Below are positions 18,110 to 39,947 of a DNA stretch of 51,682 nucleotides, piece by piece (position 1 is the first letter of the stretch; every line of letters starts with the position of its first letter). Source of the stretch: Phytoactinopolyspora limicola (GTDB taxonomy: Bacteria > Actinomycetota > Actinomycetes > Jiangellales > Jiangellaceae). The stretch spans positions 1 to 51,682 of the forward strand of contig NZ_JAAOEN010000026.1 of NCBI RefSeq assembly GCF_011320225.1, given 5' to 3'. A program made the position numbers and the translations under genes. The notes under the pieces were generated by a model, which was not told the DNA's origin, did no database searches, and worked only from the letters and a program-made list of their open reading frames with translations.

Positions 18110-18182
18110 CTCCCGCACCTGGACTCGAACCAGGAACCCTCTGATTAACAGTCAGATGCTCTGCCAATTGAGCTATGCGGGA
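18110..18182 (-). tRNA. tRNA-Asn (anticodon GTT)
   Basis: On the minus strand a complete 73-nt cloverleaf is present. The acceptor stem TCCCGCA pairs with TGCGGGA (18111-18117 against 18176-18182), followed by discriminator G. The D-arm is AGCTCAATTGGCAGAGC, the anticodon arm CTGAC-TGTTAAT-CAG with GTT at 18147-18149 (written on the plus strand as AAC), and the T-arm CCTGG-TTCGAGT-CCAGG. CCA is not encoded. All stems pair well, so it is probably functional. Confidence 0.95.
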
Positions 18183-21435: not shown

Positions 21436-21463
21436 GCGGCGAGTGTGGTTCGAGGTGGATGTG

Positions 21464-22378
21464 ATGACGCGCAACGATCATTTTCTTCCGGCGGGGGATG
21501 CGGTCGGCGGGCCGTTCGTGCTGGCGGTGTCGCCGGCCACGGACGGCCCGCTCGGCTACTCGTCGTTGCGGATCGTCGAGCTGGTAGCCGGCGAGACACA
21601 CACGTTCGATACCGGCGACGAAGAGATGTTCGTGCTGCCGCTGTCCGGATCGTGCACGGTGGTGTGCGACGGCGAGGAGTTCACCGTCGACGGTCGGGAG
21701 AACGTCTTCGCCCGGGTGACGGACTCGGTATACGTGCCACGCGACGCCGGGGTGTCGATCACGGCGACGGGACCTGGCCCCGGGCGGTTCGCGCTGCCAG
21801 CGGCGCGGTGCACCAACCGGCTGCCGGCGCGGTACCGGGCGGCTGAGGACGTCCCGGTGGAGATCCGCGGTGCTGGTCACGCCACCCGCCAGGTGAACAA
21901 CTTCGGATCGGCCGGGGTGTTCGAGGCGGATCGGCTGATCGCGGTCGAGGTGATCACTCCGGCGGGCAACTGGTCGTCGTACCCGGCGCATAAACATGAT
22001 GAGCACCGCCCGGGTGAAGAAACCGAACTGGAGGAGATCTACTACTTCGAGATCTCCGACGGTCCTGGAGCGGACGGGGCCGCCAGCCGTGGCACCACGG
22101 ATCGGCAGGGGTTCGGCTTCCACCGGGTCTATGGGACTCCCGGCCGGCCGATCGACGTGCTCGAGGAGGTGCGTACCGGCGACGTCGTGCTGATCCCGCA
22201 TGGCTGGCATGGCCCGTCGGTGGCAGCGCCCGGCTACCACATGTACTACCTGAACGTGATGTCCGGTCCTGGTGAGAAGCGGGAGTGGCTGATCTGTGAC
22301 GACCCCGCGCACTCCTGGGTCCGCGACGAGTGGCCGGACCAAAACCCGGACCCCCGCCTACCCCTCACCTCCCCATGA
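21464..22378 (+). CDS. iolB: 5-deoxy-glucuronate isomerase
   Basis: A 304-residue bicupin enzyme converting 5-deoxy-glucuronate to 2-deoxy-5-keto-gluconate. It has ETHTFDTGDEEMFVLPLSG in the first cupin and WSSYPAHKHDEH, EEIYYFEI and the HGWHGPSVAAPGYHMYYLNV metal-ligand segment in the second. GAGGTGG 5 nt upstream selects ATG 21464 over GTG 21443. The TGA stop (22376-22378) lies inside the left arm of a 58-bp perfect palindrome, so the last codons overlap that structure. It ends the first half of the inositol cluster. Confidence 0.93.
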   Translation: MTRNDHFLPAGDAVGGPFVLAVSPATDGPLGYSSLRIVELVAGETHTFDTGDEEMFVLPLSGSCTVVCDGEEFTVDGRENVFARVTDSVYVPRDAGVSITATGPGPGRFALPAARCTNRLPARYRAAEDVPVEIRGAGHATRQVNNFGSAGVFEADRLIAVEVITPAGNWSSYPAHKHDEHRPGEETELEEIYYFEISDGPGADGAASRGTTDRQGFGFHRVYGTPGRPIDVLEEVRTGDVVLIPHGWHGPSVAAPGYHMYYLNVMSGPGEKREWLICDDPAHSWVRDEWPDQNPDPRLPLTSP

Positions 22379-22429
22379 TCGTTGGCTTTCGACTACCGGA
22401 TCCGGTAGTCGAAAGCCAACGATCATGGG
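22372..22429. repeat. Long palindrome, copy A (58 bp, perfect)
   Basis: Two 29-nt arms meet at GGATCC (centre 22400/22401) with no mismatch. From the outside in it reads CCCATGATCG, then TTGGCTTTCGACTACCG, then the centre. The iolB stop codon is in the left arm. The right arm ends only 27 bp before the iolD ATG, with iolD's ribosome-binding site in between. No U-tract follows. It belongs to a family with the copies at 26829, 31203 and 34637. It may act as an I-shaped terminator, an attenuator or RNA-processing site, or a mobile repeat. Confidence 0.9.
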
Positions 22430-22456
22430 ATGGGGTGTGGACGAAGGAGAGATGAG

Positions 22457-24337
22457 ATGGCGACGACGGTGCGGCTGACGGTCGGGCAGGCGACGGTCCG
22501 CTTCCTCGCCCAGCAGTACACCGAACGCGACGGCGTCGAGCACAAGTTCGTCGACGGCTGCTTCGGTATCTTCGGCCACGGCAACCTCGCCGGACTCGGT
22601 CAGGCGCTGCTCGAGGCTGAGGTCAACGACCCGGGCGCGCTCACCTATCGGCAGGCCCGCAACGAGCAAGGTATGGTGCACGCCGCGAGCGCGTTCGCCC
22701 GGATGCGCAACCGCCTCTCCACGCTGGCGTGTACCGCCTCGATCGGACCTGGCGCCACGAACATGGTCACCGGCGCCGCGTTGGCCACCATCAACCGGCT
22801 GCCGGTGCTGCTGCTTCCCGGCGACGTCTTCGCCACCCGCGTCGCCAATCCCGTGCTGCAAGAACTGGAGAGCCCGGCCGGTTACGACGTGTCGGTGAAC
22901 GACACGTTCCGCCCGGTGTCCCGGTTCTTCGACCGCGTCTGGCGCCCGGAACAACTACCGTCGGCCCTGATCGGCGCCATGCGGGTGCTCACCGACCCGG
23001 CCGAAACGGGGGCCGCCACCATCGCGTTGCCACAAGACGTACAGGCGGAGGCTTTCGACTGGCCGGTCGAGCTGTTCGAGCGCCGCGTATGGCATGTGCC
23101 GCGGCCGGTGCCGGAACCAGCCGCGCTGGCCCGCGCCGTCGAAATGATCCGGTCCGCGCAGGCCCCGATGATCGTCGCCGGCGGCGGCGTCATCTACAGC
23201 GAGGCATCCGAGGCCCTGCGGGAGTTCGCGGAAGCCACTGGTATTCCGGTGGGGGAGACCCAGGCCGGCAAGGGTTCGCTGCCGTACGATCACCCGCTGG
23301 CACTGGGGGCGGTGGGGGCGACGGGCACGACGGCGGCCAACCGGATCGCCCGCGACGCCGACGTCGTCATCGGGATCGGCACCCGGTACAGCGATTTCAC
23401 GACGGCCTCCCGCACCGCGTTCCAGCATCCCGACGTGCGCTTCGTCAACGTCAACATCACCGGGTTCGACGCGGCCAAACACGCCGGCGTGCCGGTGGTG
23501 GCCGACGCGCGGGAGACGCTGGTAGCGCTGACCAGAGACCTCGCGGGATACGACACCGGCGCGGACTACCGCGAGCAGGCGCGGGCGCTGGCCGCCGACT
23601 GGGACACCACGGTGGAGCGGGCCTACCGGTTGGGGCACGAACCGCTGCCGGCACAGTCCGAGGTGATCGGCGTGGTGAACGACCTCTCCGGGCCGCGCGA
23701 CGTGGTGATCTGTGCGGCTGGTTCCATGCCCGGCGACCTGCACAGACTCTGGCGCACCCGCGACCCGAAGGGTTACCACGTCGAGTATGGGTACTCCTGT
23801 ATGGGCTACGAGATCGCGGGTGGGGTCGGCGCGAAGCTGGCTAGCCCGGACCGGGACGTCTACGTCCTGGTGGGCGACGGCTCCTACCTGATGATGGCGC
23901 AGGAGCTGGTCACGGCCGTTCAGGAAGGTATCAAGATCATCGTGGTGCTGGTGCAGAACCACGGCTTCCAATCCATCGGGGCACTCTCCGAGACGGTTGG
24001 TGTCCAGCGATTCGGCACCAAATACCGGTATCGCGACACCACCACCGGGCGCCTCGAAGGGGACCGGCTGCCGGTCGATCTCGCCGCCAACGCCGCCAGT
24101 CTCGGCGTCGAGGTGCATCGGGCCCGCGGCATCGACGAGTTCCGCGCCGCACTCCGTCAGGCACGAGAAGCGACGGGGCCGGTGTTGGTGCATATCGACA
24201 CCGACCCGCTGGTCTCCGCACCGGACAGTGAGTCCTGGTGGGACGTACCGGTAGCCGAGGAGGCCGAACTCGACGCCACCCGTGCGGCACGCACCGCCTA
24301 CGAACAAGGCAAAGCCGCTCAACGCGACTACCTGTGA
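22457..24337 (+). CDS. iolD: 3D-(3,5/4)-trihydroxycyclohexane-1,2-dione hydrolase
   Basis: A 626-residue thiamine-diphosphate enzyme that opens the inositol-derived ring to 5-deoxy-glucuronate. The N-terminal domain has the ThDP-activating Glu in YRQARNEQGMVHAA and ACTASIGPGATNM. The C-terminal domain has the cofactor motif GDGSYLMMAQELVTAVQ...LVQNHGFQSIG with the Mg-binding GDG...N. AAGGAGAG lies 8 nt before the ATG at 22457. The gene directly follows palindrome A, which leaves no room for a normal promoter between them, so it depends on read-through or on a promoter inside or upstream of the palindrome. Confidence 0.93.
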   Translation: MATTVRLTVGQATVRFLAQQYTERDGVEHKFVDGCFGIFGHGNLAGLGQALLEAEVNDPGALTYRQARNEQGMVHAASAFARMRNRLSTLACTASIGPGATNMVTGAALATINRLPVLLLPGDVFATRVANPVLQELESPAGYDVSVNDTFRPVSRFFDRVWRPEQLPSALIGAMRVLTDPAETGAATIALPQDVQAEAFDWPVELFERRVWHVPRPVPEPAALARAVEMIRSAQAPMIVAGGGVIYSEASEALREFAEATGIPVGETQAGKGSLPYDHPLALGAVGATGTTAANRIARDADVVIGIGTRYSDFTTASRTAFQHPDVRFVNVNITGFDAAKHAGVPVVADARETLVALTRDLAGYDTGADYREQARALAADWDTTVERAYRLGHEPLPAQSEVIGVVNDLSGPRDVVICAAGSMPGDLHRLWRTRDPKGYHVEYGYSCMGYEIAGGVGAKLASPDRDVYVLVGDGSYLMMAQELVTAVQEGIKIIVVLVQNHGFQSIGALSETVGVQRFGTKYRYRDTTTGRLEGDRLPVDLAANAASLGVEVHRARGIDEFRAALRQAREATGPVLVHIDTDPLVSAPDSESWWDVPVAEEAELDATRAARTAYEQGKAAQRDYL

Positions 24338-24377
24338 CCCACCTGCCGCAGCCAGCTTGAAATAGGAAGAGGACACC

Positions 24378-25874
24378 GTGACAACCATCCAGCACTGGAT
24401 CGGCGGACGGACCACCGCCGCAACGTCGAACCGGACCAGCCCGGTGTGGAACCCGGCCACCGGCCAACAGCAGGCCGAGGTACTGCTGGCCGAATCCGCC
24501 GACGTGGCCACCGCCGTCGCTGCCGCTCGTGCGGCCTTCGAGGGATGGTCGCAGACGTCGCTGTCGAAGCGAGCCAAGATCCTCTTCAGCTTCCGGCAGC
24601 TGGTGGACGCCCGCGCGCAGGACCTGGCCGAGATCATCGCCGACGAGCACGGCAAGGTGGTCTCCGACGCCCTCGGTGAGGTGCAGCGCGGCCTGGAGGT
24701 CGTCGAGTTCGCCTGTGGCATCCCGCACTTGCTCAAAGGCGACTACTCCGACCAGGTGTCCACCGGTGTCGACGTGTTCAGCTTCCGCGAGCCGCTGGGT
24801 GTAGTCGCCGGGATCACGCCGTTCAACTTCCCGGTCATGGTCCCGATGTGGATGCATCCGGTGGCCATCGCCTGCGGCAACACCTTCGTGCTCAAACCAA
24901 GTGAACGGGACCCGTCGGCGTCGATGCTGGTCGCCGAGCTCTGGGCGGAGGCCGGGTTGCCCGACGGCGTCTTCAACGTCGTCCATGGCGACAAGACGGC
25001 CGTCGACGCGATTCTCGACCACGACGACGTCGCGGCCGTGTCGTTCGTCGGCTCCACCCCGATCGCCCGGTACATCCACCAGCGGGCCAGCGCCAACGGC
25101 AAGCGGGTCCAGGCGTTGGGCGGCGCGAAGAACCACGCCATCGTCATGCCCGACGCCGACGTCGACTACGCCTCCGAGCACATGGTGGCCGCCGCGTTCG
25201 GCTCGGCGGGGGAGCGGTGTATGGCGATCTCGGCCGCGGTGACCGTGGGTGACGCGGGCGACGGGTTGGTGGACGCGGTAGCGGCGAAGGCGGCCAACGT
25301 TCGCGTCGGCCCCGGCCGCGACCCGCGGAGCGAGATGGGCCCGGTCGTGACGGCGGCTGCCCGCGACCGGATCGTCGGGTTGATCGGCACCGGCGCCGAC
25401 CAGGGAGCCACCCTCGCCGTGGATGGCCGAGGATATACCGTCGACGGGCACGAGAACGGATTCTGGGTTGGTCCCACCGTCATCGACCGGGTGACTCCGC
25501 AGATGGACGTCTACACCGAGGAGATCTTCGGGCCGGTGCTGTCCGTCGTCCGGGTGGACACGGTGGACGACGCGATCGCGCTGATCAACGCCAACCCGTA
25601 CGGCAACGGTACCGCCGTGTTCACCTCCAGCGGGGAGACCGCGCGCCGGTTCCAGCGAGGTGTGCAGGTCGGCATGATCGGCATCAACGTGCCCATTCCG
25701 GTACCTATGGCGTACTACTCGTTCGGCGGGTGGAAAGACTCCCTGTTCGGTGACAAACACGTCCACGGCCCCGAGGGTGTGTCGTTCTACACCCGGGCCA
25801 AGGTGATCACCTCCCGTTGGCCCCGCGTGGACAACCCAGTCGGCGCCAGCTACCACTTCCCGACCAACCAGTGA
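24378..25874 (+). CDS. iolA: Methylmalonate-semialdehyde / malonate-semialdehyde dehydrogenase (CoA-acylating)
   Basis: A 498-residue aldehyde dehydrogenase of the MMSDH group. It converts malonate semialdehyde to acetyl-CoA, the last inositol step. It starts at GTG with AGGAAGAGG upstream and reads IQHWIGGRT, then GITPFNFPVMVPMWM typical of MMSDH, LGGAKNHAIVMPDAD, the catalytic Cys in AGERCMAIS and the EEIFGPVLSVVRV motif. It follows iolD by 40 bp and precedes iolE by 16 bp in one direction. The context makes the IolA role strong. Confidence 0.92.
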   Translation: MTTIQHWIGGRTTAATSNRTSPVWNPATGQQQAEVLLAESADVATAVAAARAAFEGWSQTSLSKRAKILFSFRQLVDARAQDLAEIIADEHGKVVSDALGEVQRGLEVVEFACGIPHLLKGDYSDQVSTGVDVFSFREPLGVVAGITPFNFPVMVPMWMHPVAIACGNTFVLKPSERDPSASMLVAELWAEAGLPDGVFNVVHGDKTAVDAILDHDDVAAVSFVGSTPIARYIHQRASANGKRVQALGGAKNHAIVMPDADVDYASEHMVAAAFGSAGERCMAISAAVTVGDAGDGLVDAVAAKAANVRVGPGRDPRSEMGPVVTAAARDRIVGLIGTGADQGATLAVDGRGYTVDGHENGFWVGPTVIDRVTPQMDVYTEEIFGPVLSVVRVDTVDDAIALINANPYGNGTAVFTSSGETARRFQRGVQVGMIGINVPIPVPMAYYSFGGWKDSLFGDKHVHGPEGVSFYTRAKVITSRWPRVDNPVGASYHFPTNQ

Positions 25875-25890
25875 CGGTGGAGGCCGCAGC

Positions 25891-26799
25891 GTGACGATCA
25901 CAGGAATCGCGAATGCCCCGGTCAGCTTCGGGATCTTCGAGCTGACCACCGGCGCGGACTTCCCGGAGCCGGAAGCCATTCTCGCTCCGCTACAAGAGCA
26001 GGGATACACCGGGATCGACCTCGGCCCGGTTGGCTGGTTAGGCACCGGCGAGGTGCTCCGGGAGCGGCTGCGCCGGTTCGGGTTGGCCCTGGCCGGTGGT
26101 TGGCTCGACCTACCGTTCACCGCGGCCGATGACGAGTTCGACGCCGCACTCGACGGGCTCGACGAGGCGCTGAAGATCTTCGTCGCGGCCGCCGAGGAGT
26201 TCCCGGACCGGCCGCCGCTGCCCACCCTGGCGGACATGGGTTCCGACGCCCGCCGGGCCAACCCGGGTGGTGGCCCGGATCTGATGCTCGATGACGCGGG
26301 CTGGGAACGGCTGGCGACCAACGTGGCGCGGGCGGCGGCCCGGGTCCGTGCGGCTGGACTGAAACCGACGTTCCACCACCACGCATGTACCCATGTGGAG
26401 ACGCCGGACGAGATCGACATCTTCCTGGACCGCACCGACGTCGACCTGACGTTCGACACCGGTCACCTGCTCATCGGCGGGGGCGACCCGGTGGAGGGCT
26501 GGAAGCGGTGGCGGACCCGGATCAACCACCTGCACCTGAAAGACGTGCGCCGCGAGGTGCTCGACCAGGTGGTGCGGGAACGGGCCGGCATGCGTGCGGT
26601 GTGGGAACGTCAGGCGTTCGTGGCGCTCGGCGCTGGTGACCTCGATCTTGCCGGGTTCATGGACGCGGTGACCGGTGATGGGTTCGACGGGTGGATCGTC
26701 GTCGAGCAGGACGTCGTTCCGTCGCCGGCGGATCCGCCGCGACGTGCCGTCGACGACCAGAGGGCGAACCGGGAAGCGCTGCGCCCCTGGGCTCCGTAG
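25891..26799 (+). CDS. iolE: IolE-like sugar isomerase / inosose dehydratase family protein
   Basis: A 302-residue AP-endonuclease-family-2 TIM-barrel protein, starting at GTG. It has SFGIFELTTG, YTGIDLGPVGWLG, LKPTFHHHACTHVET and FDTGHLLIGGGDP with metal ligands, then INHLHLKDVR and a C-terminal WIVVEQD Glu. This matches the inosose-dehydratase (IolE) or IolI/IolH type. No other IolE candidate occurs in the cluster, so inosose dehydratase is the best call, although the IolH/IolI isomerase role cannot be excluded. It is the last gene of the operon and converges on the FHA-ABC gene across palindrome B. Confidence 0.8.
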   Translation: MTITGIANAPVSFGIFELTTGADFPEPEAILAPLQEQGYTGIDLGPVGWLGTGEVLRERLRRFGLALAGGWLDLPFTAADDEFDAALDGLDEALKIFVAAAEEFPDRPPLPTLADMGSDARRANPGGGPDLMLDDAGWERLATNVARAAARVRAAGLKPTFHHHACTHVETPDEIDIFLDRTDVDLTFDTGHLLIGGGDPVEGWKRWRTRINHLHLKDVRREVLDQVVRERAGMRAVWERQAFVALGAGDLDLAGFMDAVTGDGFDGWIVVEQDVVPSPADPPRRAVDDQRANREALRPWAP

Positions 26800-26828
26800 C
26801 CCGCCCAGCCCTCCCCACCCCGGCCCCA

Positions 26829-26878
26829 TGATCATTGGCTTTTGACTACCGAATTCGGTAGTCAAAAGCCAATGATCA
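26829..26878. repeat. Long palindrome, copy B (50 bp, perfect)
   Basis: Two 25-nt arms meet at GAATTC (centre 26853/26854). The core is TTGGCTTTTGACTACCG as in copy C. It sits between convergent genes, 29 bp after the iolE stop, and its right arm contains the TGA stop (26878-26876) of the minus-strand ABC gene. A G-rich run follows on the plus strand. A bidirectional terminator is the natural role here. Confidence 0.9.
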
Positions 26879-29122
26879 CCGGGGGGAGGGGGAGAGGGTG
26901 TTTACCCGGCGGTGGGTCAACACCGCGAACCCGCTAGCCATCACCAGAAGGACGGCCAAGGACAGCAGCCACCACCCCGGAGCATGCGACCACAACGGGT
27001 CCTGCGGCCCATCCGGGACCAGCGTGCGCAGGTCGGACGTCGCGGCACTGGCTGCGTAACCCCATCGCGACGGGGCGAGCCAGGAGATCACACTCAACAC
27101 CGCGCGTCCCGTCACCGGAATCAGACCACCACACAACACGAGCTGCGCCATCACCGTGATGACGAGGATCGGCATCACCTGTTCGGCCGACTTCACCATC
27201 GACGAAAGCCACAACGCCAGCAGACACGACGCGTAGGCGGTCAACGCGACCGCCATCGTGATCTCGACCGCGCCAGGTAGGACGGTGACACCGCTGGCAG
27301 GCATCGCCTTGACGATCGACACCGTGCCGACCAGCAGCAGCGCCTGCACGCAGCACACCGCGAAGAAAACGGTGAATTTGGCGCCGACGTAGGCCCATGG
27401 GGCCAGGCCGGCCATCTGTTCCCGGGCCAGGATCGCCCGCTCACCGATCACTTCACGCGCCGACACGGCCGCGCCCATAAACGACGCACCAACGATCAAC
27501 ACCACCAGCAGTTGGGTGGGTTCGGTCGGCGCGTCGATCGCCGGTGTGCGCAGGCCCTGGCCACCTGGCACCGCGAAGGCAAGCAAGGCGAGCATGACCG
27601 GCAACACCGCCAGGAACGCCGCGTAGGGCCGGTCGGCGACGATGAGCCGGCAATGACGAGCAGCCAGCGTGCGTGCCTGGCGCAGCCATCGCTGATCGGG
27701 ATCGCTGGAGGTGGAACGGGTCTCCACACTGCTGTGCCGGGCCGATCGATCCGCCTGCTTCTGCCGGTCGGCTCGGTAAGCGGCGTGTGCGCCGGCCGGA
27801 TCGTTGCTGACCGCGTTGAACACCTCCGACCACGACGACCAGTCGGCGCGGCGCAGGAGATCGGCGGATGTGCCCACGTAGGCGGGTAACCCACCAGGTG
27901 CCAGGAGCAGCACCTGGTCGCACAGGTCGAGGTTGGTCGGGCTGTGGGTGATGACCACCACGATCCGCCCGGAATCGGCGATCTGCCGCAACCCGGCCAT
28001 GATCTGCTGATCCAGGCCGGGGTCCAGGCCCGACGTGGGTTCGTCGAGAATGAGCAGCGATGGCTCCGTCAGCAGTTCTAGTGCCGTCGACACCCGTTTA
28101 CGCTGGCCACCGGAGAGCTGATCGACCCGGGTATCCGCGCGTGGCGTCAGCCCCAACTCCGCCAACACGTCGTCGACTCGGGCGTCCGCATCGTGCTGGT
28201 CGACATCGGGTGGAAGCCGTAGCCGAGCGGCGTAGGTCAGCGCGCGCCGGGTGCTGAGTTTGCCGTGCACGATGTCGTCCTGCGGGACGTATCCGATCCG
28301 GGTACGGACGACGTGTACGTCGCGATGTACGTCGAAGCCGTCGTACTCCACGCTGCCCGACGTGGGCGTGAGTATGCTGGTCAGCACCTTGGCGAGAGTG
28401 GACTTTCCGGCGCCCGACGGTCCTATGACGGCGACTAGGCTACCGGCGGACAGCTCGAGGTCCACGTCGTCGAGGAGGGTGACGCCGCCCGGCAAGGAGT
28501 ACCCGAGCCGGCGCACGCTCAGCCAGGACCGTTCGGTAGCGACAACCAGCTCACCGTCGTCGAACACGAGGTCGGTGTTGCCGATCGTGATGGTGTCGCC
28601 GTTTCTCAACTGGGCCTGGCGCACTGGGCGGCCGTTGACGAAGGTGCCGTTGGGGCTGTCCAGATCGGTGATCGTCCATCCGGTGTTGGTGCTGGCCAGG
28701 ACCGCGTGGTGGCGGGACGCGGTCAGATCGGGCACCACCATGTCGTTGCCCGCTCCCCGGCCAATGCGGATCTGCGCGGATGGAGTTGGTGTGTGCTGGG
28801 GCTCGGGCGTGGCCTCGGTTGTCTCGAGCTGGACGACAGGACCGCTCGCCGGGTCCGCCAGCCGGATCGTCGTGGGCTGTTCCAGTGGTAGCGACGACAC
28901 GCGTTGCCCGTCGGCGAAGCTGCCAGACGTCGACTGGTCCCGAAACCACCAATGGCCATCGTCATGGACAAGGGTGGCGTGGATCCGGGACACCCGTAGA
29001 TCACCGACGTGAAGTGCCGCCTCGTCGTCGCGCCCGATCGTGTACGGCCCCGGAGGGGATAACACGCGGCGCTGTGATGCTCCCAAGCCGTCGTCGACGA
29101 CGACCACCAACGGAACCGGCAT
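26876..29122 (-). CDS. FHA-domain ABC transporter (ATPase-permease fusion, Rv1747-like)
   Basis: A 748-residue half-transporter. Two N-terminal FHA domains (about residues 15-90, GRDDEA...SRIHATLV, and 115-190, IGRGAGNDMVV...SRHHAVL...GTFVNGRPV) are followed by an ABC ATPase (about 205-430: GPSGAGKST, LSGGQRKRVS, LLILDEPTSGLD). A hydrophobic ABC-2 permease domain with about six membrane spans occupies residues 515-740. In Mycobacterium, Rv1747 has this layout and is regulated by the adjacent kinase PknF through FHA phospho-threonine binding. Here a PASTA kinase lies 6 bp upstream in the same operon. The transported substrate is unknown; lipid-linked envelope components are possible. Confidence 0.88.
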   Translation of the reverse strand: MPVPLVVVVDDGLGASQRRVLSPPGPYTIGRDDEAALHVGDLRVSRIHATLVHDDGHWWFRDQSTSGSFADGQRVSSLPLEQPTTIRLADPASGPVVQLETTEATPEPQHTPTPSAQIRIGRGAGNDMVVPDLTASRHHAVLASTNTGWTITDLDSPNGTFVNGRPVRQAQLRNGDTITIGNTDLVFDDGELVVATERSWLSVRRLGYSLPGGVTLLDDVDLELSAGSLVAVIGPSGAGKSTLAKVLTSILTPTSGSVEYDGFDVHRDVHVVRTRIGYVPQDDIVHGKLSTRRALTYAARLRLPPDVDQHDADARVDDVLAELGLTPRADTRVDQLSGGQRKRVSTALELLTEPSLLILDEPTSGLDPGLDQQIMAGLRQIADSGRIVVVITHSPTNLDLCDQVLLLAPGGLPAYVGTSADLLRRADWSSWSEVFNAVSNDPAGAHAAYRADRQKQADRSARHSSVETRSTSSDPDQRWLRQARTLAARHCRLIVADRPYAAFLAVLPVMLALLAFAVPGGQGLRTPAIDAPTEPTQLLVVLIVGASFMGAAVSAREVIGERAILAREQMAGLAPWAYVGAKFTVFFAVCCVQALLLVGTVSIVKAMPASGVTVLPGAVEITMAVALTAYASCLLALWLSSMVKSAEQVMPILVITVMAQLVLCGGLIPVTGRAVLSVISWLAPSRWGYAASAATSDLRTLVPDGPQDPLWSHAPGWWLLSLAVLLVMASGFAVLTHRRVNTLSPSPR

Positions 29123-29128
29123 CGCCGG

Positions 29129-31171
29129 CTACTCGTCTTCGTCCGTTGTCTCGGGAACCTCGTCCGGGCTGCCCAGTACCTGGGCGTCGCCCCAGACGAC
29201 ATAGGTGCTCGAGCTGTTGGCCAGCGTGACCAGTTCCAGCCGGAGCACCCCGGTGACGTCGATGTCGATCTGCGCGGCGTCGCCGAGCCCCAACGTCTCC
29301 TCGAACAGCAGGCGACCGTCACCGTAGACCCCGATCTGGACTTCGGAGTCCGACGGTGCGTCGTCCCGCGGGCCCACCACGGCCCGGAACTCCCGGTAGC
29401 CCCGGCCGAGATCGAAGCCGGCCCGCCGGGGTTCGCTGCTACTCCTGGTCCACGTCAGCACCGACCGGGTGAACGTGTCGCCGGAGATCCGGGCGGCCGC
29501 GGTGTCGACCGAGCCCTCGACCGGTGATTGGTCGGCGAGGAAGGTGATCACGGGGCGCCGGGAGACGGTGAGAAGAACGTCGTCGGAGAACGGTTGCCCG
29601 GCGGCGGGTTCCTGCTGGATCACCTCGCCATCGGGAACGTCCTCGTCGAGAACGTCGATGGTCTCCACCGTCACACCCAAGCTTTCCAGTTCTCGCAAGG
29701 CGCTACCCAACCGTTCACCCACGACGTCGGGTGCGGTGACCGGCTGTTCGGCGACCACCAGTGTGACGGACTCGGTGGTGGTCGAGCCGGCCCGCGGCTG
29801 CTGAGACAGCACCGTTCCGGACGGCTCCGCGCTGGCCTCGCGCTCGACGTGGACGTCGAAGCCCAACTCGGCGAGCTGGTCCCGGGCGGCATCGACATCG
29901 TGTCCGGTGACGTCGGGGACCTCCGGGTCGTCCTCAGGTTCGTCGCCGGATTCACTTGCACCGACCTGCTCGGTGGAGTCCGCGTCGGTGTTTGCCGCGG
30001 GGTCGGCGTCTGCGGTGGCGTCGGCGTCGGTGGCGATGGGCGTGGTGTCACCGTCTCGCCCGGCGAGCGCGATGACGATGGCGATGGCCGCCCCGACGAG
30101 GATCACCGCCGCCGCGGCGATCCCGATGAGCCGTCCGCGCCGGGACCGGCCGCCGCCGGCGGCTCGGACTGGCTGAAACTTCTGTGACACCGTGCCCACC
30201 GCCAACGCTTGGGCCCATTCGACGACGTCGGTTGGCCGCCGAGACGGATCGCGTTCCAGCATCGACAGCACATGGCTGGCGAAGCCTTCGTTGTCGTCGA
30301 CCCCGGTGACGGCCAGCAACCGCGTCCGCATTCCCGCGGTATCCAGCGGGTTCGGTGGTTCGCCGGTGAACAGGTAGTACGCGATGGCACCCAGGCCGAA
30401 CCGATCCGACGCCTTCGATGGCGGGGCGCCGGCCACGATCTCGGGAGCCAGGTACGCGGGAGTGCCGACGAGCGTCGCGGAATCGGCGTCCGCGAACCGG
30501 GCGAAGCCGAAGTCGACCAGCCGGACCGCGCCGTCGGGGGTGACGATCACGTTCGCCGGTTTGACATCGCGGTGCAGCACTGCCGTGCCGCCGGTGGCCT
30601 CACCTCGGTGGAGGTAGTCGATGGCGGCGGCCAGCCGCGAGATGATGCGGGTGGCCTCGAGCGGATCCCGGTCGGGTCGGCGCTCCACCCAGGTGACCAA
30701 GTTCTCGCCCGGTACGAGGTTCATGACGAAGTACAGGGCGCGAGTAGACGGGTCCGACTCGCCGGGGCGGTGCGGTGCCGGTCCCTCGAATGCCTCTCGC
30801 ACCTTGACCAGGTTTGGATGGTCGAGGCTGCGGAGAAGCTCGGCCTGTCCGCGTAGCCTTTCGGACAGTTGGGTATTACGTGCGTCGCTTTCCGCCGGGA
30901 GGATCTTCACCGCGACCGGCAGTTCCTGGCCGTCGACGTCGACGCTGCCCGCCCAGAGCTCACCCTCGCCGCCGCGGGATCGCAGCTCGGTCAGCTTGTA
31001 ACGGTCGGGCGCGCCGAATGGGCCGACTCTGTCCTGCTCACCGTCACTCGCACTTGTCCCGGCGTCATGGTGCCGCACGCTTCCGCCTCTCCTGTCCACC
31101 AGCTGGTCGGGCCAAGCCGCGTCCCCGCCGGACACGTCGTCGGCCATAGTTGATCTCGGGAAGTTTTCCAT
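29129..31171 (-). CDS. Membrane Ser/Thr protein kinase with PASTA repeats and NPCBM-like end
   Basis: A 680-residue PknB-type kinase. The cytoplasmic kinase domain (about residues 55-325) has an unusual Gly loop RSRGGEGELW, the catalytic HRDVKPANVI, DFGFARF and TPAYLAPE motifs. A basic juxtamembrane part leads to one membrane helix (about 350-372), an acidic Asp/Ala-rich linker, and two PASTA repeats (VPDVTGHDVDAARDQL; APDVVGERLGSALREL). The end (from about 555) resembles an NPCBM sugar-binding domain (GFDLGRGYREFRAVVG). It is coupled to the FHA-ABC gene by a 6-bp gap. The ATG at 31147 is an alternative start; neither has a strong ribosome-binding site. Confidence 0.87.
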   Translation of the reverse strand: MENFPRSTMADDVSGGDAAWPDQLVDRRGGSVRHHDAGTSASDGEQDRVGPFGAPDRYKLTELRSRGGEGELWAGSVDVDGQELPVAVKILPAESDARNTQLSERLRGQAELLRSLDHPNLVKVREAFEGPAPHRPGESDPSTRALYFVMNLVPGENLVTWVERRPDRDPLEATRIISRLAAAIDYLHRGEATGGTAVLHRDVKPANVIVTPDGAVRLVDFGFARFADADSATLVGTPAYLAPEIVAGAPPSKASDRFGLGAIAYYLFTGEPPNPLDTAGMRTRLLAVTGVDDNEGFASHVLSMLERDPSRRPTDVVEWAQALAVGTVSQKFQPVRAAGGGRSRRGRLIGIAAAAVILVGAAIAIVIALAGRDGDTTPIATDADATADADPAANTDADSTEQVGASESGDEPEDDPEVPDVTGHDVDAARDQLAELGFDVHVEREASAEPSGTVLSQQPRAGSTTTESVTLVVAEQPVTAPDVVGERLGSALRELESLGVTVETIDVLDEDVPDGEVIQQEPAAGQPFSDDVLLTVSRRPVITFLADQSPVEGSVDTAAARISGDTFTRSVLTWTRSSSEPRRAGFDLGRGYREFRAVVGPRDDAPSDSEVQIGVYGDGRLLFEETLGLGDAAQIDIDVTGVLRLELVTLANSSSTYVVWGDAQVLGSPDEVPETTDEDE

Positions 31172-31202
31172 GACAACGAGAAGAGTGCTAGTGCCCCTTC
31201 CT

Positions 31203-31268
31203 CCTCCCGGTGATCATTGGCTTTTGACTACCGGATCCGGTAGTCAAAAGCCAATGATCACCGGGAGG
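31203..31268. repeat. Long palindrome, copy C (66 bp, perfect)
   Basis: Two 33-nt arms meet at GGATCC (centre 31235/31236), with CCTCCCGGTGATCATTGG outside and CTTTTGACTACC inside. It is the longest copy. The TGA stop of the upstream minus-strand isomerase (31260-31258) is in one arm, and the kinase start lies 31 bp beyond the other arm in the same transcription direction. It may end the DUF993 operon, but then leaves almost no space for a kinase promoter. Confidence 0.92.
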
Positions 31269-32175
31269 GGGAGGGGGTGGGGTCGAGCACCGTGGCGGCG
31301 TAGCGCTGCTTCATCAGGGTGACGACGTCGTCCGGGGCGGCCGCCCAGATGTCGGCGTTGAAGATCTCCACCTCGATGTCGCCCCGGTAGCCCGCGGCCT
31401 CGACGAGCCGGCGCAGGTGCCGCAGGTCGATGTGGCCGTCGCCCATCATCCCGCGGGCCAGCAGGGTATCGGCGGGCAGCGGGGTGATCCAATCGCACAC
31501 CTGGAAGCTGGCGATCCGCCCGGAGGCGCGTCGGATCTGCCGCTCCACGTCCGGATCCCACCACACGTGGAACGTGTCGACGACGACGCCTACCGCCTCG
31601 ACCGGATGCTGTTCGGCGAGGTCTAGTGCCTGCCCGAGGGTCGACAACACACCTCGGTCGGCGCAGTACATCGGGTGCATCGGTTCGAGCGCCAGCTGCA
31701 CACCGCGGTCAAGGGCGTAGGGGACCAGTTCGGCGATACCGTCGGCGACCCGTTGCCGGGCGCCGTGTAAGTCGCGGTCTCGGCGTTGGCCCGCTTCGTC
31801 GTCGGCCGACTGATCGTGGGTGGTGCTGCCCGGCAGGACGGGCGCGCCGGAACCGCTGCCGTCCGGCAGTCCGCCCACCACCATGACCAGGCACCGGGCG
31901 TTCAGGTCGGCGGCTTCGTCGATGGCACGGCGGTTGTCGTCGATGGTCCGTCGCCGGTGTGCATCGTCGGCGACGGTCAGAAACCCGCCGCGGCACAGTG
32001 ACGAGACCCGTAGGCCGGCGTCGCGCACCAGCCGCGCCGACTCGGCGACCCCGTACTCGCGCACCGGTTCCCGCCACAGTCCGATCGCTTCGAGCCCGGC
32101 CCGGACGCACCCGTCGACAGCTTCCGGCACCGACCACCCGTTGGTGGTCTTCTGGTTCAGCGACAGCCGCCGCAT
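31258..32175 (-). CDS. Sugar phosphate isomerase/epimerase (xylose-isomerase-like TIM barrel)
   Basis: A 305-residue AP-endonuclease-family-2 protein. The start is the ATG at 32175, one base after the stop of the DUF993 gene; a longer reading would run back through that gene. It reads LSLNQKTTNGWSVPEAVDGC, LVMVVGGLPDGS, the metal-ligand LALEPMHPMY, VGVVVDTFHVWWDP, FQVCDW and a final GDIEVEIFN Glu. Typical enzymes in the family isomerise or epimerise keto sugars using a divalent metal. It is the last gene of the Gfo/Idh-DUF993 operon. The stop codon lies inside palindrome C. Confidence 0.83.
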   Translation of the reverse strand: MRRLSLNQKTTNGWSVPEAVDGCVRAGLEAIGLWREPVREYGVAESARLVRDAGLRVSSLCRGGFLTVADDAHRRRTIDDNRRAIDEAADLNARCLVMVVGGLPDGSGSGAPVLPGSTTHDQSADDEAGQRRDRDLHGARQRVADGIAELVPYALDRGVQLALEPMHPMYCADRGVLSTLGQALDLAEQHPVEAVGVVVDTFHVWWDPDVERQIRRASGRIASFQVCDWITPLPADTLLARGMMGDGHIDLRHLRRLVEAAGYRGDIEVEIFNADIWAAAPDDVVTLMKQRYAATVLDPTPSPSR

Positions 32176-32176
32176 C

Positions 32177-33334
32177 TCAGGCCACCCCGTAGGTGCGCAG
32201 GAGCGTCGCCATCCGCGCCGCGGCAAGCTCCGGGTCGGGGAACAGCCGCGCGGCGTCGGCCAGCCGGAACGTCTCCACCAGATGCGGCAGGCTGCGGGCG
32301 CTCTGCAGGCCGCCGACCATGGTGAAACCCGGTTGGAAACCGGATAACCAGGACAGGAACGCGATCCCGGTCTTGTAGTAGTACGTCGGCGCACCGAACA
32401 CGTGCCGGGCCAGCGGGACGGTTGGTCCGAACGCCGCCTCGTAGGCGTCGTCGTCGCCCCGATCGAGGGCTTCCAAAGCCGCGGCGGCCGCGGGTGCGAT
32501 CGCGGCGAAGATGCCGAGCAGCGCGTCGCTGTGGTGGGTGCCGTCGCCGCCGATCAGCTCGGGATAGTTGAAGTCGTCCCCGGTGTAAACGCGGACCCCG
32601 GCCGGCAAACGAGTACGTAGCGCCTTCTCGTGACCGGCGTCGAGCAGTGACACCTTGATCCCGTCGATCCGCGCCGCATGATCGTGGATCAGCCCGACGA
32701 CGTGGTCCGTGGCGGTCTCGACGTCGTCGCTACCCCAGTAGCCCCGCAACGCTGGGTCGAACATCGGGCCTAACCAGTGCAGAATGACCGGCTGGTCGGT
32801 TCTAGAGATGATCCGGTCGTAGACCGCCCGGTAGTCATCGGCTGTCTGGGCGACGGCGGCCAGGTGCCGGCTGGCCATCAGGATGATCTGCGCACCGGTA
32901 CTTTGCACGACATCGATCTGGGTCTCGTAGGCGGCGGCGACGTCGTCGAGGCTGTTGGTGGGCTGGTCCAGGTGGTCGGTGCCGGCGCCGGCGGCGATCC
33001 GGTGTCCCGACGACGACGCTTCGGCGGCGCTGCGGCGGATGAGCTCCTGCGTCGTCGGCCAATCGAGGCCCATGCCGCGTTGTGCGGTGTCCATCGCCTC
33101 GGCGACACCGAACCCGTACCCCCACAGGTGGTGCCGGAAAGCCAGGGTGGCGTCCCAGTCGACGACGGCCGGCGCACCGGGCGTGTTGTCGCCCAACGGG
33201 TCGGCGACGACGTGCGCAGCGGCGAAGGCGATCCGGGACTGGAACGGCCGCTGGGGGAGGGGCCAGTCCGCAGCGTCGTTCATGGTGTGCCGGGTGCTGC
33301 CGCCGTCAGCGGTGGGCAAGGTGATCGTGGTCAT
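32177..33334 (-). CDS. DUF993-family TIM-barrel protein
   Basis: A 385-residue protein of the DUF993 group, distantly like dihydrodipicolinate synthase. Readable landmarks are PFQSRIAFAAAHVVADP near the start, WDATLAFRHHLWGYGFGVAEAMDTAQRGMG, ILMASRHLA, VILHWLGPMFDPALRGYWG, IKVSLLD with a candidate Schiff-base Lys, and YTGDDFNYPELIGGDG. The IKVSLLD Lys sits where class-I lyases carry theirs, which is inference. It is always worth reading with its neighbours: Gfo/Idh upstream and sugar isomerase downstream form an operon that looks like oxidation, isomerisation and retro-aldol cleavage of a sugar. Confidence 0.8.
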   Translation of the reverse strand: MTTITLPTADGGSTRHTMNDAADWPLPQRPFQSRIAFAAAHVVADPLGDNTPGAPAVVDWDATLAFRHHLWGYGFGVAEAMDTAQRGMGLDWPTTQELIRRSAAEASSSGHRIAAGAGTDHLDQPTNSLDDVAAAYETQIDVVQSTGAQIILMASRHLAAVAQTADDYRAVYDRIISRTDQPVILHWLGPMFDPALRGYWGSDDVETATDHVVGLIHDHAARIDGIKVSLLDAGHEKALRTRLPAGVRVYTGDDFNYPELIGGDGTHHSDALLGIFAAIAPAAAAALEALDRGDDDAYEAAFGPTVPLARHVFGAPTYYYKTGIAFLSWLSGFQPGFTMVGGLQSARSLPHLVETFRLADAARLFPDPELAAARMATLLRTYGVA

Positions 33335-33348
33335 GGCGTCTCCGTCCG

Positions 33349-33396
33349 TTGCGTCCTGCTCCCCGAGCGCCCCCGGCCACGCGTTGCAGGACGCAA
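33349..33396. promoter_or_regulatory. Intercistronic inverted repeat
   Basis: TTGCGTCCTGC (33349-33359) and its exact complement GCAGGACGCAA (33386-33396) lie 26 bp apart in the 67-bp gap between the Gfo/Idh and DUF993 genes. In the operon mRNA this would form an 11-bp stem with a GC-rich loop, suited to modulating expression or mRNA stability between the two cistrons. Confidence 0.5.
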
Positions 33397-33401
33397 GGTG
33401 G

Positions 33402-34553
33402 TCACGGCGTCAGCTCCGGCAGTTCGACGCGCGCGCCACGCCGCGAGGATTCGAGCCCGGCCTCGGCCAGTCGGACACCGCGTGCTCCGGCCAGGAAGTT
33501 GTACGGGTGCGGGCCATCGTCGACCACGTGCCGGATGAAGTCTTCCCACTGCGCCTTGAATCCGTTGTCCGTCGTGGAATTGGCGGGGACGTCTTGCCAC
33601 TGGTCGCGGAAGGGTTCGGTCTCGACGAGGTCGGGGTTCCACACTGGCCGGGGGGTGGCGCCGCGGTGCTGGGCGACGCAGTTGTGCAGCCCGGCGACGG
33701 CGCTGCCGTGGGTGCCGTCGACCTGGAATTCGACCAGTTCGTCACGGTGCACCCGTACACACCACGACGAGTTGAGCTGGGCGACGACGCCGTTCTCCAG
33801 CTCGAAGATCGCGTACGCGGCGTCGTCGGCGGTGGCGTCGTACGGTTTGCCCTGCTCGTCCCACCGCTGGGGGATGTGGGTGACGGCGCGGGCGGTCACC
33901 GCCTCGATCCTGCCGAACAGGTTGGTGAGCACGTAGTCCCAATGGCAGAACATGTCGGTGACGATGCCACCGCCGTCTTCGGCGCGGTAGTTCCAGCTGG
34001 GCCGTTGGGCCGACTGCCAGTCGCCCTCGAAGACCCAGTAGCCGAACTCGCCGCGGACGGAGAGGATGCGCCCGAAGAACCCGCTGGCGATCAGCCGGTG
34101 CAGTTTGAGCAGACCCGGCAGGTACAGCTTGTCGTGGACAACACCGTTCTTGATGCCGGCCGCCTGAGCCCGGCGGGCCAGGTCCAGTGCGCCGTCGACC
34201 GTCTCGGAGATCGGCTTCTCGGTGTAGATGTGTTTACCGGCATCGATCGCTTTGATCAACGAAGCTTCGCGGACCGAGGTGAGTTGCGCGTCGAAGTAGA
34301 TCTGCATCTCTGGGTCGGCGAGCGCGGTGTCGACGTCGGTGGTCCAGCGGCTGAGGCCGTGGCGGTCGGCGATCTCGCGAAGCTTGGTTTCGTTACGCCC
34401 GGCCAGTAGTGGCTCGACCCGCACCCGGGTGCCGTCGGCGAGCTCCACTCCGCCCTGCTCGCGGATAGCCAGGATGGATCGCACCAGGTGCTGGCGGTAG
34501 CCCATGCGGCCGGTGACGCCGTTCATGATGACACCGATCGACGTGCGTGCCAT
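33402..34553 (-). CDS. Gfo/Idh/MocA-family oxidoreductase
   Basis: A 383-residue enzyme. The N-terminal cofactor region is unusual, IGVIMNGVTGRMGYRQHLVRS, a dihydrodipicolinate-reductase-like GxxGRMG loop. The EKPISE motif carries the catalytic Lys, followed by KNGVVHDKLYLPG and DMFCHWDYVLTNLFG. It leads the operon with DUF993 and the isomerase. A near-perfect LacI-type palindrome ends 10 bp before its start codon, so the operon is probably repressed until an inducer sugar is present. The substrate is unknown. Confidence 0.85.
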   Translation of the reverse strand: MARTSIGVIMNGVTGRMGYRQHLVRSILAIREQGGVELADGTRVRVEPLLAGRNETKLREIADRHGLSRWTTDVDTALADPEMQIYFDAQLTSVREASLIKAIDAGKHIYTEKPISETVDGALDLARRAQAAGIKNGVVHDKLYLPGLLKLHRLIASGFFGRILSVRGEFGYWVFEGDWQSAQRPSWNYRAEDGGGIVTDMFCHWDYVLTNLFGRIEAVTARAVTHIPQRWDEQGKPYDATADDAAYAIFELENGVVAQLNSSWCVRVHRDELVEFQVDGTHGSAVAGLHNCVAQHRGATPRPVWNPDLVETEPFRDQWQDVPANSTTDNGFKAQWEDFIRHVVDDGPHPYNFLAGARGVRLAEAGLESSRRGARVELPELTP

Positions 34554-34562
34554 TCGTCCTCC

Positions 34563-34586
34563 TCGTCGGAAAGCGCTTACCGACGA
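34563..34586. promoter_or_regulatory. LacI-type operator of the Gfo/Idh-DUF993 operon
   Basis: TCGTCGG-A-AAGCGCTT-A-CCGACGA is a 24-bp palindrome with a single mismatched pair. Its centre AAGCGCTT is the classic core recognised by LacI/GalR regulators. It lies directly upstream of the Gfo/Idh ATG (34553), where a bound repressor would block transcription. The LacI protein encoded at 38718-39761 is the nearest candidate. Confidence 0.75.
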
Positions 34587-34636
34587 AGCTACACCACGCT
34601 GCCGCGTTTCGGCCAGCTCCCACCACCTCCCGCCTC

Positions 34637-34688
34637 ATGATCGTTGGCTTTTGACCCCCATATACGGTGGTCAAAAGCCAACGATCAT
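34637..34688. repeat. Long palindrome, copy D (52 bp, two mismatched pairs)
   Basis: The arms share TGATCGTTGGCTTTTGACC with the other copies, but the centre has changed to CCCATATACGG, leaving two unpaired positions (34657/34668 and 34660/34665). It sits 15 bp after the stop of the minus-strand NmrA-like gene and 50 bp upstream of the LacI-type operator. A terminator role for the NmrA gene fits its place. Confidence 0.88.
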
Positions 34689-34703
34689 CGGAGCGAGAGG
34701 GGG

Positions 34704-35561
34704 TCACTGGGTTAGGGCGTGTTTGATGGTTTCGTCGATCTCGGTGGTGCATTGGTGGACCCGGTCGCCCGCTGGGCGCAGCAAGCCGTCTTCGCCGGCG
34801 GCGTACATCTCGGCCAACTGCTCGGCGAAGTCCGACGGCAGTCCCGCCTGCTCCAACGTGCTGACCCACTCCTGGCGTGGCACGTTGACGACAGTGGCGG
34901 TCGTGTTGAGCGCCGCCGCCAGCTTCTCCGCAACCTGGCGTTCGGTGTAGGCGTGGCCGTCAAGGTCGATGACTTCGCTGTGTGTAGGTGGTTCGACCAG
35001 GAGGTTGGCCGCGACCGCGCCGATGTCCCGGGTGGCGATCATCGGGATCGCAACGTCGGCGGACGAACCGAAGTTCGGATAGATACCGTCGTGCCGAACG
35101 GCGTCGATCGCTTCCTCGAACTTCTCCTGGAAGTGGGCCGACCGGACTGCGGTCAGCACCGTCCCGGTGTCACGTAGTTCGTTCTCCAGATGGTGCAGCC
35201 AGCGGATCGGACCGGTACCCGCCGGTAGGTGAGCACCGATAGAAGACAACATGACGACGTGTGGCACGCCGCTGTCGCGTACCGCACCGGCAATGGAATC
35301 GATCAAACCACGCTGGGCTTCGGCGTCGGTAGCGCCCGGTATAAACGGCAACATCACGAAGAAGCCGTCGACACCGTCGATCGCCTTCGCCAAGCCGGCG
35401 CGGTCTCGCAGATCGACGACGGCGGCTTCGGCACCTAGATCGGTCCACGCCGCTGCCTTGGCCGAGTCCCGAACCAGGGCTCGGACGGGCACCCCCTTAG
35501 CCCGCAGCTCGCGCGCGGTGGCTCCTCCGACGTGTCCTGTTACTCCGGTGATGGCGTACAT
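34704..35561 (-). CDS. NmrA-like / atypical SDR NAD(P)-binding protein
   Basis: A 285-residue protein with the NmrA/HSCARG-type start YAITGVTGHVGGATAREL, then RALVRD, VDLRD, VVMLSSIGAH and a C-terminal region typical of NAD(P)H:quinone-reductase-like or regulatory atypical SDRs. The classical YxxxK is absent. ATG 35561 has GGAGCG 7 nt upstream; the 40 extra codons before it lack family support. It is transcribed away from the AraC regulator gene (166-bp shared gap), the usual arrangement for a redox enzyme and its regulator. Confidence 0.85.
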   Translation of the reverse strand: MYAITGVTGHVGGATARELRAKGVPVRALVRDSAKAAAWTDLGAEAAVVDLRDRAGLAKAIDGVDGFFVMLPFIPGATDAEAQRGLIDSIAGAVRDSGVPHVVMLSSIGAHLPAGTGPIRWLHHLENELRDTGTVLTAVRSAHFQEKFEEAIDAVRHDGIYPNFGSSADVAIPMIATRDIGAVAANLLVEPPTHSEVIDLDGHAYTERQVAEKLAAALNTTATVVNVPRQEWVSTLEQAGLPSDFAEQLAEMYAAGEDGLLRPAGDRVHQCTTEIDETIKHALTQ

Positions 35562-35715
35562 GGGCTCGCTCCGTTCGATCGTGGATGTGGTGAGCCTGAA
35601 CGGCTCTGAAGTGGCGGTGGCCGTGTCTCTATTCGACCGGAACGCCGCTGCGCGGACCATGGTTGGAACGCCTGCCCACATGTCTGTGCGTCTGGCTCAC
35701 CGCACACCGGCCTCG

Positions 35716-35727
35716 TAAGCTGGACCC
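35716..35727 (+). promoter_or_regulatory. Possible leaderless promoter of the AraC gene
   Basis: TAAGCT (35716-35721) is a good -10 box 6 bp before the ATG at 35728, with a weak TGGCTC -35 17 bp upstream. No ribosome-binding site precedes the ATG. Together these suggest transcription starting at or near the start codon, which is common in actinobacteria. Confidence 0.35.
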
Positions 35728-38577: not shown

Positions 38578-38717
38578 GAGACTCCTTCACTAGATAGCTA
38601 TGAAGAAGGAGCCACGAGGAAGGCGCCGGCACTCCATCAAGTGATGCAGCACACACCGCTTCGGTGCGTCGAGTCAGCTCACGCCGGAGTCCGTGCGGCC
38701 GAGCCGCGCGACGGGCG

Positions 38718-39761: not shown

Positions 39762-39788
39762 GGAGTCCCCGTTCCTGACGTGCCGGCT

Positions 39789-39802
39789 GGAAGGCGGTTT
39801 CC
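39789..39802. promoter_or_regulatory. Degenerate LacI-type operator before the lacI-family gene
   Basis: GGAAGGCGGTTTCC keeps the symmetric outer GGAA...TTCC and central CG of the GGAAAGCGCTTACC site at 34568-34581, but its inner bases differ. It lies 28 bp upstream of the regulator's start, a suitable place for autorepression. Support is weak without binding data. Confidence 0.4.
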
Positions 39803-39926: not shown

Positions 39927-39947
39927 TCGGTGCTGTTGGTGATGTGG

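Follow-up and report, generated by a model that had tools for sequence, protein, structure and literature searches.

Why do long palindromes of nearly the same sequence lie at the ends of unrelated genes? The question is raised by a stretch of the Phytoactinopolyspora limicola genome (Jiangellaceae; assembly GCF_011320225.1, contig NZ_JAAOEN010000026.1, positions 1 to 51,682), called here the window, which was analysed at its full length of 51,682 nucleotides. A first-pass annotation of this DNA had described four such palindromes and explained their complementary arms either by selection on a hairpin or cruciform or by copying as a unit. We found that they belong to a repeat family with fixed ends, replaced cores, a bias to gene ends, use of the end as a stop codon and Watson-Crick covariation between the arms, and that an element can be present in one species and absent from the same place in a relative. 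The family is probably a dispersed element similar to repetitive extragenic palindromic sequences (REPs) and miniature inverted-repeat transposable elements (MITEs), namely a nearly loop-less palindrome of 49-50 bp with fixed ends TGATCAT..ATGATCA and an interchangeable core.

The window holds five of these elements, with two classes of core (F1 and F2; core classes were grouped by eye):

22372-22429: palindrome A, class F1, perfect, with 29-nt arms; the 50-nt element TGATCG..CGATCA occupies 22376-22425 with flanks CCCA and TGGG, and the plus-strand gene 21443-22378 (KduI/IolB family) stops on the element's first TGA (22376-22378).
26829-26878: palindrome B, class F1, perfect, with 25-nt arms, between the convergent genes 25891-26799 (plus strand) and 26876-29110 (minus strand); the minus-strand gene takes its stop codon from the palindrome's right-hand TGA (minus strand, 26876-26878).
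31203-31268: palindrome C, class F1, perfect, with 33-nt arms; the element occupies 31211-31260 with flanks CCTCCCGG and CCGGGAGG, and the minus-strand gene 31258-32175 stops on the element's right-hand TGA (minus strand).
34637-34688: palindrome D, an F1 variant with 26-nt arms that are 92% complementary and two mismatched pairs near the centre; the element occupies 34638-34687, and its edge lies 15 nt past the stop codon of the minus-strand gene 34704-35660.
41159-41218: the fifth palindrome, class F2, with core TGAACACTTTGCCGTG, perfect; the element occupies 41164-41213, and its edge lies 8 nt past the stop codon of the minus-strand gene 41227-42669.

The first four lie exactly where the annotation had placed them, perfect in A, B and C and with two mismatched pairs in D. 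Its paired differences were also recovered (TTTCGAC/GTCGAAA in A only, GATCGTT/AACGATC in A and D), as were the centres GGATCC in A and C, GAATTC in B and ATATA in D. The 17-mer TTGGCTTTTGACTACCG, given as common to all four, is exact in B and C only; A has TTTCGAC, and D has CCCCC or CCACC after GAC. Each of the four does sit at the 3′ end of at least one called gene, as had been claimed, and so does the fifth. Two things can be added to that description: the fifth palindrome itself (41159-41218), whose class has about 90 copies in the genome, and the finding that at A, B and C an adjoining gene has the TGA of the terminal TGATC as its stop codon.

How numerous is the family, and how far does it reach? 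At up to two mismatches the F1 arm GATCRTTGGCTTTYGAC has 105 forward and 103 reverse matches in the 6.59-Mb P. limicola genome and none when read backwards, a number that chance cannot explain; at up to one mismatch it is present in 3 of 40 genomes, P. limicola included. The F2 arm has 90 and 88 matches in the P. limicola genome (up to two mismatches), and its named matches, among those listed, all come from Phytoactinopolyspora (halophila, halotolerans, endophytica), a genus of Jiangellaceae. We then counted the general pattern TGATCAT-N34..38-ATGATCA, which demands no inner pairing and has a few matches by chance, with the reversed pattern as control. It occurs 209 times in P. limicola, 101, 157, 133 and 46 times in four genomes of the same genus, 158 times in P. 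halophila, 19-122 times in twelve genomes of a genus labelled g3, which is probably Jiangella, and 70, 2, 8 and 0 times in four other genomes of the family. At least two matches are present in 21 of the 22 Jiangellaceae genomes, and the reversed control has none in all 22.

Of 371 genomes beyond the family, 46 contain between 1 and 10 matches; the control is positive in 4. Palindromic matches with other cores were found in G026 (10), G050 and G101 (5 each) and G168 (2), while the other listed matches are evidently due to chance. These four genomes represent other actinomycete families and carry a few palindromes of 48-52 nt with TGATCAT ends and cores such as TGCAATCCCGCCACC; G109 has six pattern matches. 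The TGATCAT end motif may be older by far than this palindrome family. When stems were sought by length only, this class made up 8 of the 13 long stems in 400 kb of P. limicola and 4 of the 10 in 400 kb of G001 from the same family, but in 200 kb each of G004 and G014 it made up 1 of 3 and 0 of 1.

The anatomy of the element was studied in a set of 223, many of them from loci included because an element is there; loci L001-L003, L031, L152 and L153, elements less than 250 nt from a locus end and repeats were left out. A second set (n=226) excluded L214-L229, L152, L153 and most 3-kb loci. Although 46-60 nt were allowed, 205 of the 223 elements measured 49-50 nt (50 nt in 118 and 49 nt in 87). 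They share the ends TGATCAT..ATGATCA around several cores (F1, F2 and others) which differ by species. Since elements were found through their TGATC ends, the constancy of those five bases is by construction, and among 59 aligned elements with varying cores six end pairs are invariant, five of the six fixed by the search. Fixed ends and fixed length are what binding sites of a dimeric DNA-binding or nucleoid protein would show if it read TGATCAT/ATGATCA and used the core as a spacer of set length. We regard such sites as unlikely: a spacer needs no complementarity, yet cores and outer flanks covary strongly, and the position of the elements is tied to stop codons. We know of no protein that reads these ends.

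What is the unit that is copied? The element is preceded by CCC[CG]A and followed by T[GC]GGG, and for about 20 nt the left side is C-rich and the right side G-rich, unlike gene ends generally. Among 50-nt P. limicola copies at unrelated loci, identity inside the 50 nt is 0.95 for 34 F1 and 0.94 for 34 F2 elements; it falls to 0.70-0.83 in the five flanking bases on each side, and the mean pairwise value beyond 20 nt is about 0.28. The copied unit in P. limicola is the 50 nt. Of the two proposals of the first-pass annotation, copying as a unit is supported by these values. A unit with terminal inverted repeats that is copied whole, with identity dropping at its edges, is a trait of MITEs, and many short extragenic palindromic copies (209, with only 5 of the 223 elements inside called open reading frames, ORFs) are a trait of REPs. 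The first flanking pair in the 59 aligned elements is A/T in 37, G/C in 10, C/G in 5 and another in 7; a general target duplication is not apparent among them, and the G/C and C/G pairs do not fit one.

Larger arrangements were seen as well. Two compound palindromes of P. limicola of about 118 nt (L208:17515 and L212:1568) have common outer arms TGATCGTTAGCGGATTTCCGCC with a 52-nt inner element in the centre, and seem to form a third, larger family or a nested one. In P. halophila (L101, about 1920-2010) an F2 element occupies the exact centre of the outer palindrome TGATCATGGTTCCGG..CCGGAACCATGATCA. A nearly perfect 94-nt palindrome with 47-nt arms and TGATCATGTAAACC ends in G004 (L163:14046-14139) is of a longer class with the same end. 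Two near-identical F1 elements of P. limicola (L211:18467 and 18585) lie 118 nt apart with similar C-rich flanks beside a run of N, possibly a tandem duplication or an assembly edge.

It is at orthologous positions that the behaviour of the family could be traced. DNA in all 22 family genomes matches 19.8 kb of the window, and blocks from 15 of them were compared with P. limicola. At site A an element lies at the same gene end in ten genomes, P. limicola and nine others, with about eight different cores; in eight of the nine the core differs from that of P. limicola. G012 and G015-G018 have no element there, G009 has one by eye which the script missed, and four further genomes of genus g3 stood outside this comparison. 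For other sites a looser count (33 sites, 9 shared and 24 not) took in neighbours only 24-40% identical and doubtful elements, and was replaced by a strict recount in which both neighbours are at least 60% identical and only well-paired elements enter; P. endophytica loci L079 and L141 were assigned to G003 by assumption. The recount gave 21 orthologous sites. Eight are occupied in at least two species, one of these with a doubtful partner; the other 13 are occupied in a single species and lack an element in the one or two relatives examined. Core classes differ at three of the 8 shared sites: site A, a site with F1 in P. limicola and F2 in G001, and a site with two classes in G003 and G004. 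At three others a common outer arm encloses different inner cores, one has two diverged F2-like copies, and one is that with the doubtful partner. The one clean empty site is provided by G013, where CCCCCA[50 nt]TGGGC corresponds to CCCCATGGGC in G015, G017 and G018, a net 50 nt between A and T, compatible with no duplication or with a 2-bp AT duplication.

These data bear on the view that mutation alone, through polymerase template switching between arms, re-perfects old hairpins and occasionally converts them, with neither function nor mobility. The mechanism is documented (PMC8794818, in outline), and it would suit covariation of Watson-Crick type that shows no preference for G-U. By itself, though, it explains neither why each of two cores is present at unrelated loci in some 90-100 near-identical copies nor why a site can hold an element in one species and none in a relative, and flank pairing is equal in copies with exact and with diverged cores, with no visible build-up with age (p 0.62 for F1 and for F2). 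We hold mutation alone to be quite improbable. Insertion into pre-existing hairpins was also considered and found no support: orthologous empty gaps are no richer in stems (57 gaps, a set that includes low-identity pairs; mean best stem 5.32 versus 5.75 in length-matched gaps). Three elements (G014:C1:402623 and 1011682, and L180:10094) have arms seemingly of different core types (TCGGCNTTCGAC.. versus TCGGCGATCC..); perhaps they are intermediates of core exchange, or else an asymmetric class.

How are the elements placed relative to genes? Genes came from our own ORF caller trained on the P. limicola genome, in which stops are firm and starts are not. Density was taken from five stretches (1.87 Mb, three species), of which the window and its G001 counterpart, with 8 of the 49 elements, had themselves been chosen for elements. 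There, an element is present in 18 of 257 gaps between convergent genes, in 23 of 1092 between codirectional genes and in 6 of 253 between divergent genes, and one element lies inside an ORF; convergent gaps exceed codirectional (p 0.0002) and divergent ones (p 0.02). By setting, 81 of the 223 elements are convergent, 116 codirectional, 21 divergent and 5 inside ORFs.

The elements are not scattered at random relative to genes, and the tie to gene 3′ ends noted in the annotation is borne out. Among 278 genes reading into an element, 91 stop on its first TGA; a further 17 do so at position 14-16, where many F2 copies have a TAG or TAA, and 8 stop elsewhere inside it. In 134 the stop lies up to 60 nt before the element, and in 28 it lies further off. 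The ORFs that end within an element are divided 87, 21 and 5 among the three frames (p 1.6e-22). Among 78 convergent elements, 19 contain the stops of both genes and 30 that of one gene; altogether 87 of 2862 called genes stop on an element's TGA.

Genes that stop on an element often have C-termini unlike those of relatives. Where the stop lies on the element's TGA, C-terminal length is more than 2 residues off that of orthologs without an element in 119 of 190 pairs (47 genes). For genes that end ahead of the element the figure is 65 of 208 pairs (51 genes); the pairs are not independent. The shift can be constant, +5 in 13 of 13 relatives for L179:1645 and +6 in 12 of 13 for L178:333, as expected of a derived insertion. 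In the window, the minus-strand gene at C (31258-32175) is 4-7 residues longer at its C-terminus than 8 of 11 relatives without an element there, and the other three give 0, +2 and a misaligned -97. For the minus-strand gene at B (26876-29110) no ortholog was found in the relatives' blocks compared (15 genomes).

Is the pairing of the arms a property of the RNA or of the DNA? Covariation is present in the relatives, as the annotation had asked to be checked: 59 elements aligned with 15-nt flanks show two-sided changes in 31 of 38 pairs and 438 two-sided cells versus 168 in shuffled data (0 of 500 shuffles as high), and the covariation score is 0.454 versus 0.172 shuffled and 0.077-0.145 when slid. 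With far more copies than four, arms that covary and positions tied to stop codons, none of the findings that were to count against the annotation (only four copies, no covariation, random intergenic repeats) was obtained. Flank sequence specific to each locus also shows more pairing in cis than with shuffled partners, out to about 15 nt (z 19 for pairs 1-5, 11.8 for pairs 6-10 and 6.6 for pairs 11-15), and within species inner pairs covary in most sets. If a stem in the RNA of the upstream gene were under selection, G-U should be tolerated and A-C not. Codirectional elements oriented by their gene have 30 G-U versus 42 A-C in the stem (p 0.19), and in their gene-sense flanks the ratio of cis to shuffled is 0.46 for G-U and 0.58 for A-C in pairs 1-5, and 0.83 and 0.88 in pairs 6-15. 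Compensatory change with G-U tolerated on the transcribed strand, as RNA selection predicts, was not found in this test; G-U is not favoured over A-C. Elements between divergent genes (n=24) show the same pairing excess. Because G-U is avoided as much as A-C and divergent elements pair equally, the pairing looks like a property enforced in DNA rather than RNA. A cause at the DNA level (copying templated by the other arm, palindromic insertion, or a cruciform) accounts better for the covariation, and the hairpin part of the earlier proposal, as far as it concerns RNA, is left without support as its cause.

The same evidence weighs on the strongest competitor, which we would give a minority chance. 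It sees the elements as two-way terminators without a U-tract (I-shaped), or as stabilising hairpins at 3′ ends, with selection on the RNA stem and a sequence shared through occasional copying between sites. The position at gene ends and the excess between convergent genes suit it, as do the predicted RNA hairpins of the five window palindromes (-50.8 to -76 kcal/mol; none of 200 shuffles of any one of them is as stable) and the U-poor, highly structured 3′ ends and long-stem bidirectional ends outlined for Streptomyces (PMC8269248, PMC12207403). The lack of G-U preference in the sense strand of the gene and the equal pairing of divergent elements are contrary to it, and a terminator does not need near-identical 50-nt copies at unrelated loci. 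Canonical terminators alone, rather than I-shaped ones, are further opposed by the scarcity of TTTT, which follows within 40 nt in only 2 of 116 codirectional elements, and the palindromes are absent among 7 terminator-like matches in 22000-41500. Under the REP/MITE-like reading, too, the elements may have a secondary role as two-way hairpins at mRNA 3′ ends, which the predicted folds and the Streptomyces ends make plausible.

Still less probable, in our judgement very much so, is that these are REPs moved by a Y1 (HUH) transposase of the REP-associated tyrosine transposase (RAYT) type, or paired DNA-uptake sequences acting as terminators. Both are palindromic, intergenic, numerous and placed at gene ends in the cited outlines (PMC12306157, PMC1852404), as here. 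A search for the Y1 transposase (PF01797) at E 0.001, however, was negative in all 22 family genomes and positive in 5 of 14 controls, and single arms are nearly absent from the P. limicola sequence examined, unlike uptake sequences.

The missing transposase is also a point against the REP/MITE-like reading itself, and others have to be set beside it. No F1 or F2 copy with split arms, which could represent an autonomous partner, was found in 0.86 of the 6.59 Mb of P. limicola, in stretches largely chosen for elements; the same 0.86 Mb gave 74 forward arm matches with only two arms unpartnered, each with a visibly degenerate partner. Only one empty site is clean, it does not separate insertion from excision, and other genera carry elements there. 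Of 136 ortholog pairs without an element, only 6 are gap-free across the junction, five of them at this same site, and some of the sites counted as empty contain what is left of a degenerate element, as does the P. halotolerans partner of L202:1644. Elements are no scarcer in divergent than in codirectional gaps (p 0.81), and the change of length at stops supplied by elements goes both ways (59 longer and 60 shorter of the 190). For one of five covariation measures, pair types, 2 of 500 shuffles scored as high. The innermost pairs (19-22) show less pairing in cis than with shuffled partners in P. halotolerans (z -4.3), and no more than with shuffled partners in the 49-nt copies of P. halophila (z 1.0). 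Finally, the G-U test is also compatible with hairpin selection in both directions of transcription.

Among described systems, the closest in behaviour is SPRITE of pneumococcus, as outlined in PMC3049150: it too is a small interspersed hairpin repeat near gene 3′ ends, with a convergent excess and no matching insertion sequence ends found. That account gives SPRITE as AT-rich, with an 18-bp duplex and a uridine-rich tract, whereas our elements have C-rich and G-rich flanks, no T-tract and arms of at least 25 bp, and differ also in their interchangeable cores and in the stop codons supplied by the element end. The REP/RAYT system has, in the outline of PMC12306157, many short extragenic palindromes per genome, some just after stop codons, as here. 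No Y1 match was found in the 22 family genomes, and REPs lack fixed TGATCAT ends. REPs are moreover imperfect and have a GTAG foot. MITEs such as RUP, Correia, ERIC and the Rickettsia palindromic elements are likewise short non-autonomous units with inverted repeats that spread and can reshape ORFs (PMC10969869, PMC2229807). They are mostly 100-200 bp, with TA-type ends and target duplication, in contrast to our 50 bp, almost all palindrome, with no general duplication apparent; a partner element was not found here within the 0.86 Mb. The I-shaped or U-poor terminators and bidirectional 3′ ends of Streptomyces share long stable stems lacking a U-tract, C-rich before and G-rich after (PMC8269248), but that outline does not describe them as a repeat family with common ends and exchanged cores, and covariation here lacks G-U tolerance. 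In inverted pairs of DNA-uptake sequences acting as terminators (Neisseria, Pasteurellaceae) a repeated sequence also stands in inverted pairs at gene ends (PMC1852404, in outline), while the present family has almost no single arms, and its species have only the 7-nt end in common. The lack of a Y1 match makes a resident REP/RAYT enzyme improbable, as the lack of a T-tract does canonical terminators and the scarcity of single arms uptake sequences. We file the family among small palindromic repeats, as neither REP nor member of a named MITE family. Earlier descriptions of these elements, or of such an exchange mechanism, were not found in the open-licence literature, judged mostly from titles and abstract openings, and may exist in print; matches there to TGATCATTGGC only, among those listed, concern unrelated subjects.

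Ten genes adjoining the window palindromes have ordinary Pfam matches: a KduI/IolB protein and a thiamine pyrophosphate enzyme at A, and elsewhere two xylose-isomerase-like barrels, an ABC transporter with FHA domains, a protein kinase with PASTA domains, an oxidoreductase, an NmrA-like protein, a sigma-70 factor and an MFS transporter. An Rfam search of the window, in which relatives' elements were not included, left the palindromes unmatched, and its only match above the gathering score is a tRNA gene at 18110-18182 on the minus strand. A search of a plasmid collection for relatives of palindrome A gave no match.

If the element is REP/MITE-like, how could it have spread? It would insert, or be copied by recombination or template switching, into spots like CCC[CG]A^T[GC]GGG, with centres like CCCATGGG. 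Badly placed copies may then be removed by selection, leaving those in the TGA frame, and copies would survive mainly where they end an ORF harmlessly. Symmetry could be restored or created by DNA-level copying between the arms, for which template switching is a known mechanism (PMC8794818, in outline). More specifically, and more tentatively, we may be dealing with a minimal mobile element: 50 bp with fixed 7-nt ends and an exchangeable core, inserted, removed and exchanged by a non-HUH activity at CCCATGGG-like sites at gene ends, where it supplies a ready-made stop codon in either direction. REPs up to 15 nt from a stop codon are said to stall ribosomes (PMC12306157, in outline), and by analogy an effect of our element on the ends of translation is a possibility.

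What does this family mean more widely? Covariation is usually strong evidence of a selected RNA structure, but here hundreds of copies covary with no G-U preference, which makes the choice between RNA selection and copying between arms at the DNA level directly testable. The replacement of cores at fixed positions points to an exchange mechanism. It appears, too, that a compact genome can be colonised by a repeat that settles on stop codons and takes their place.

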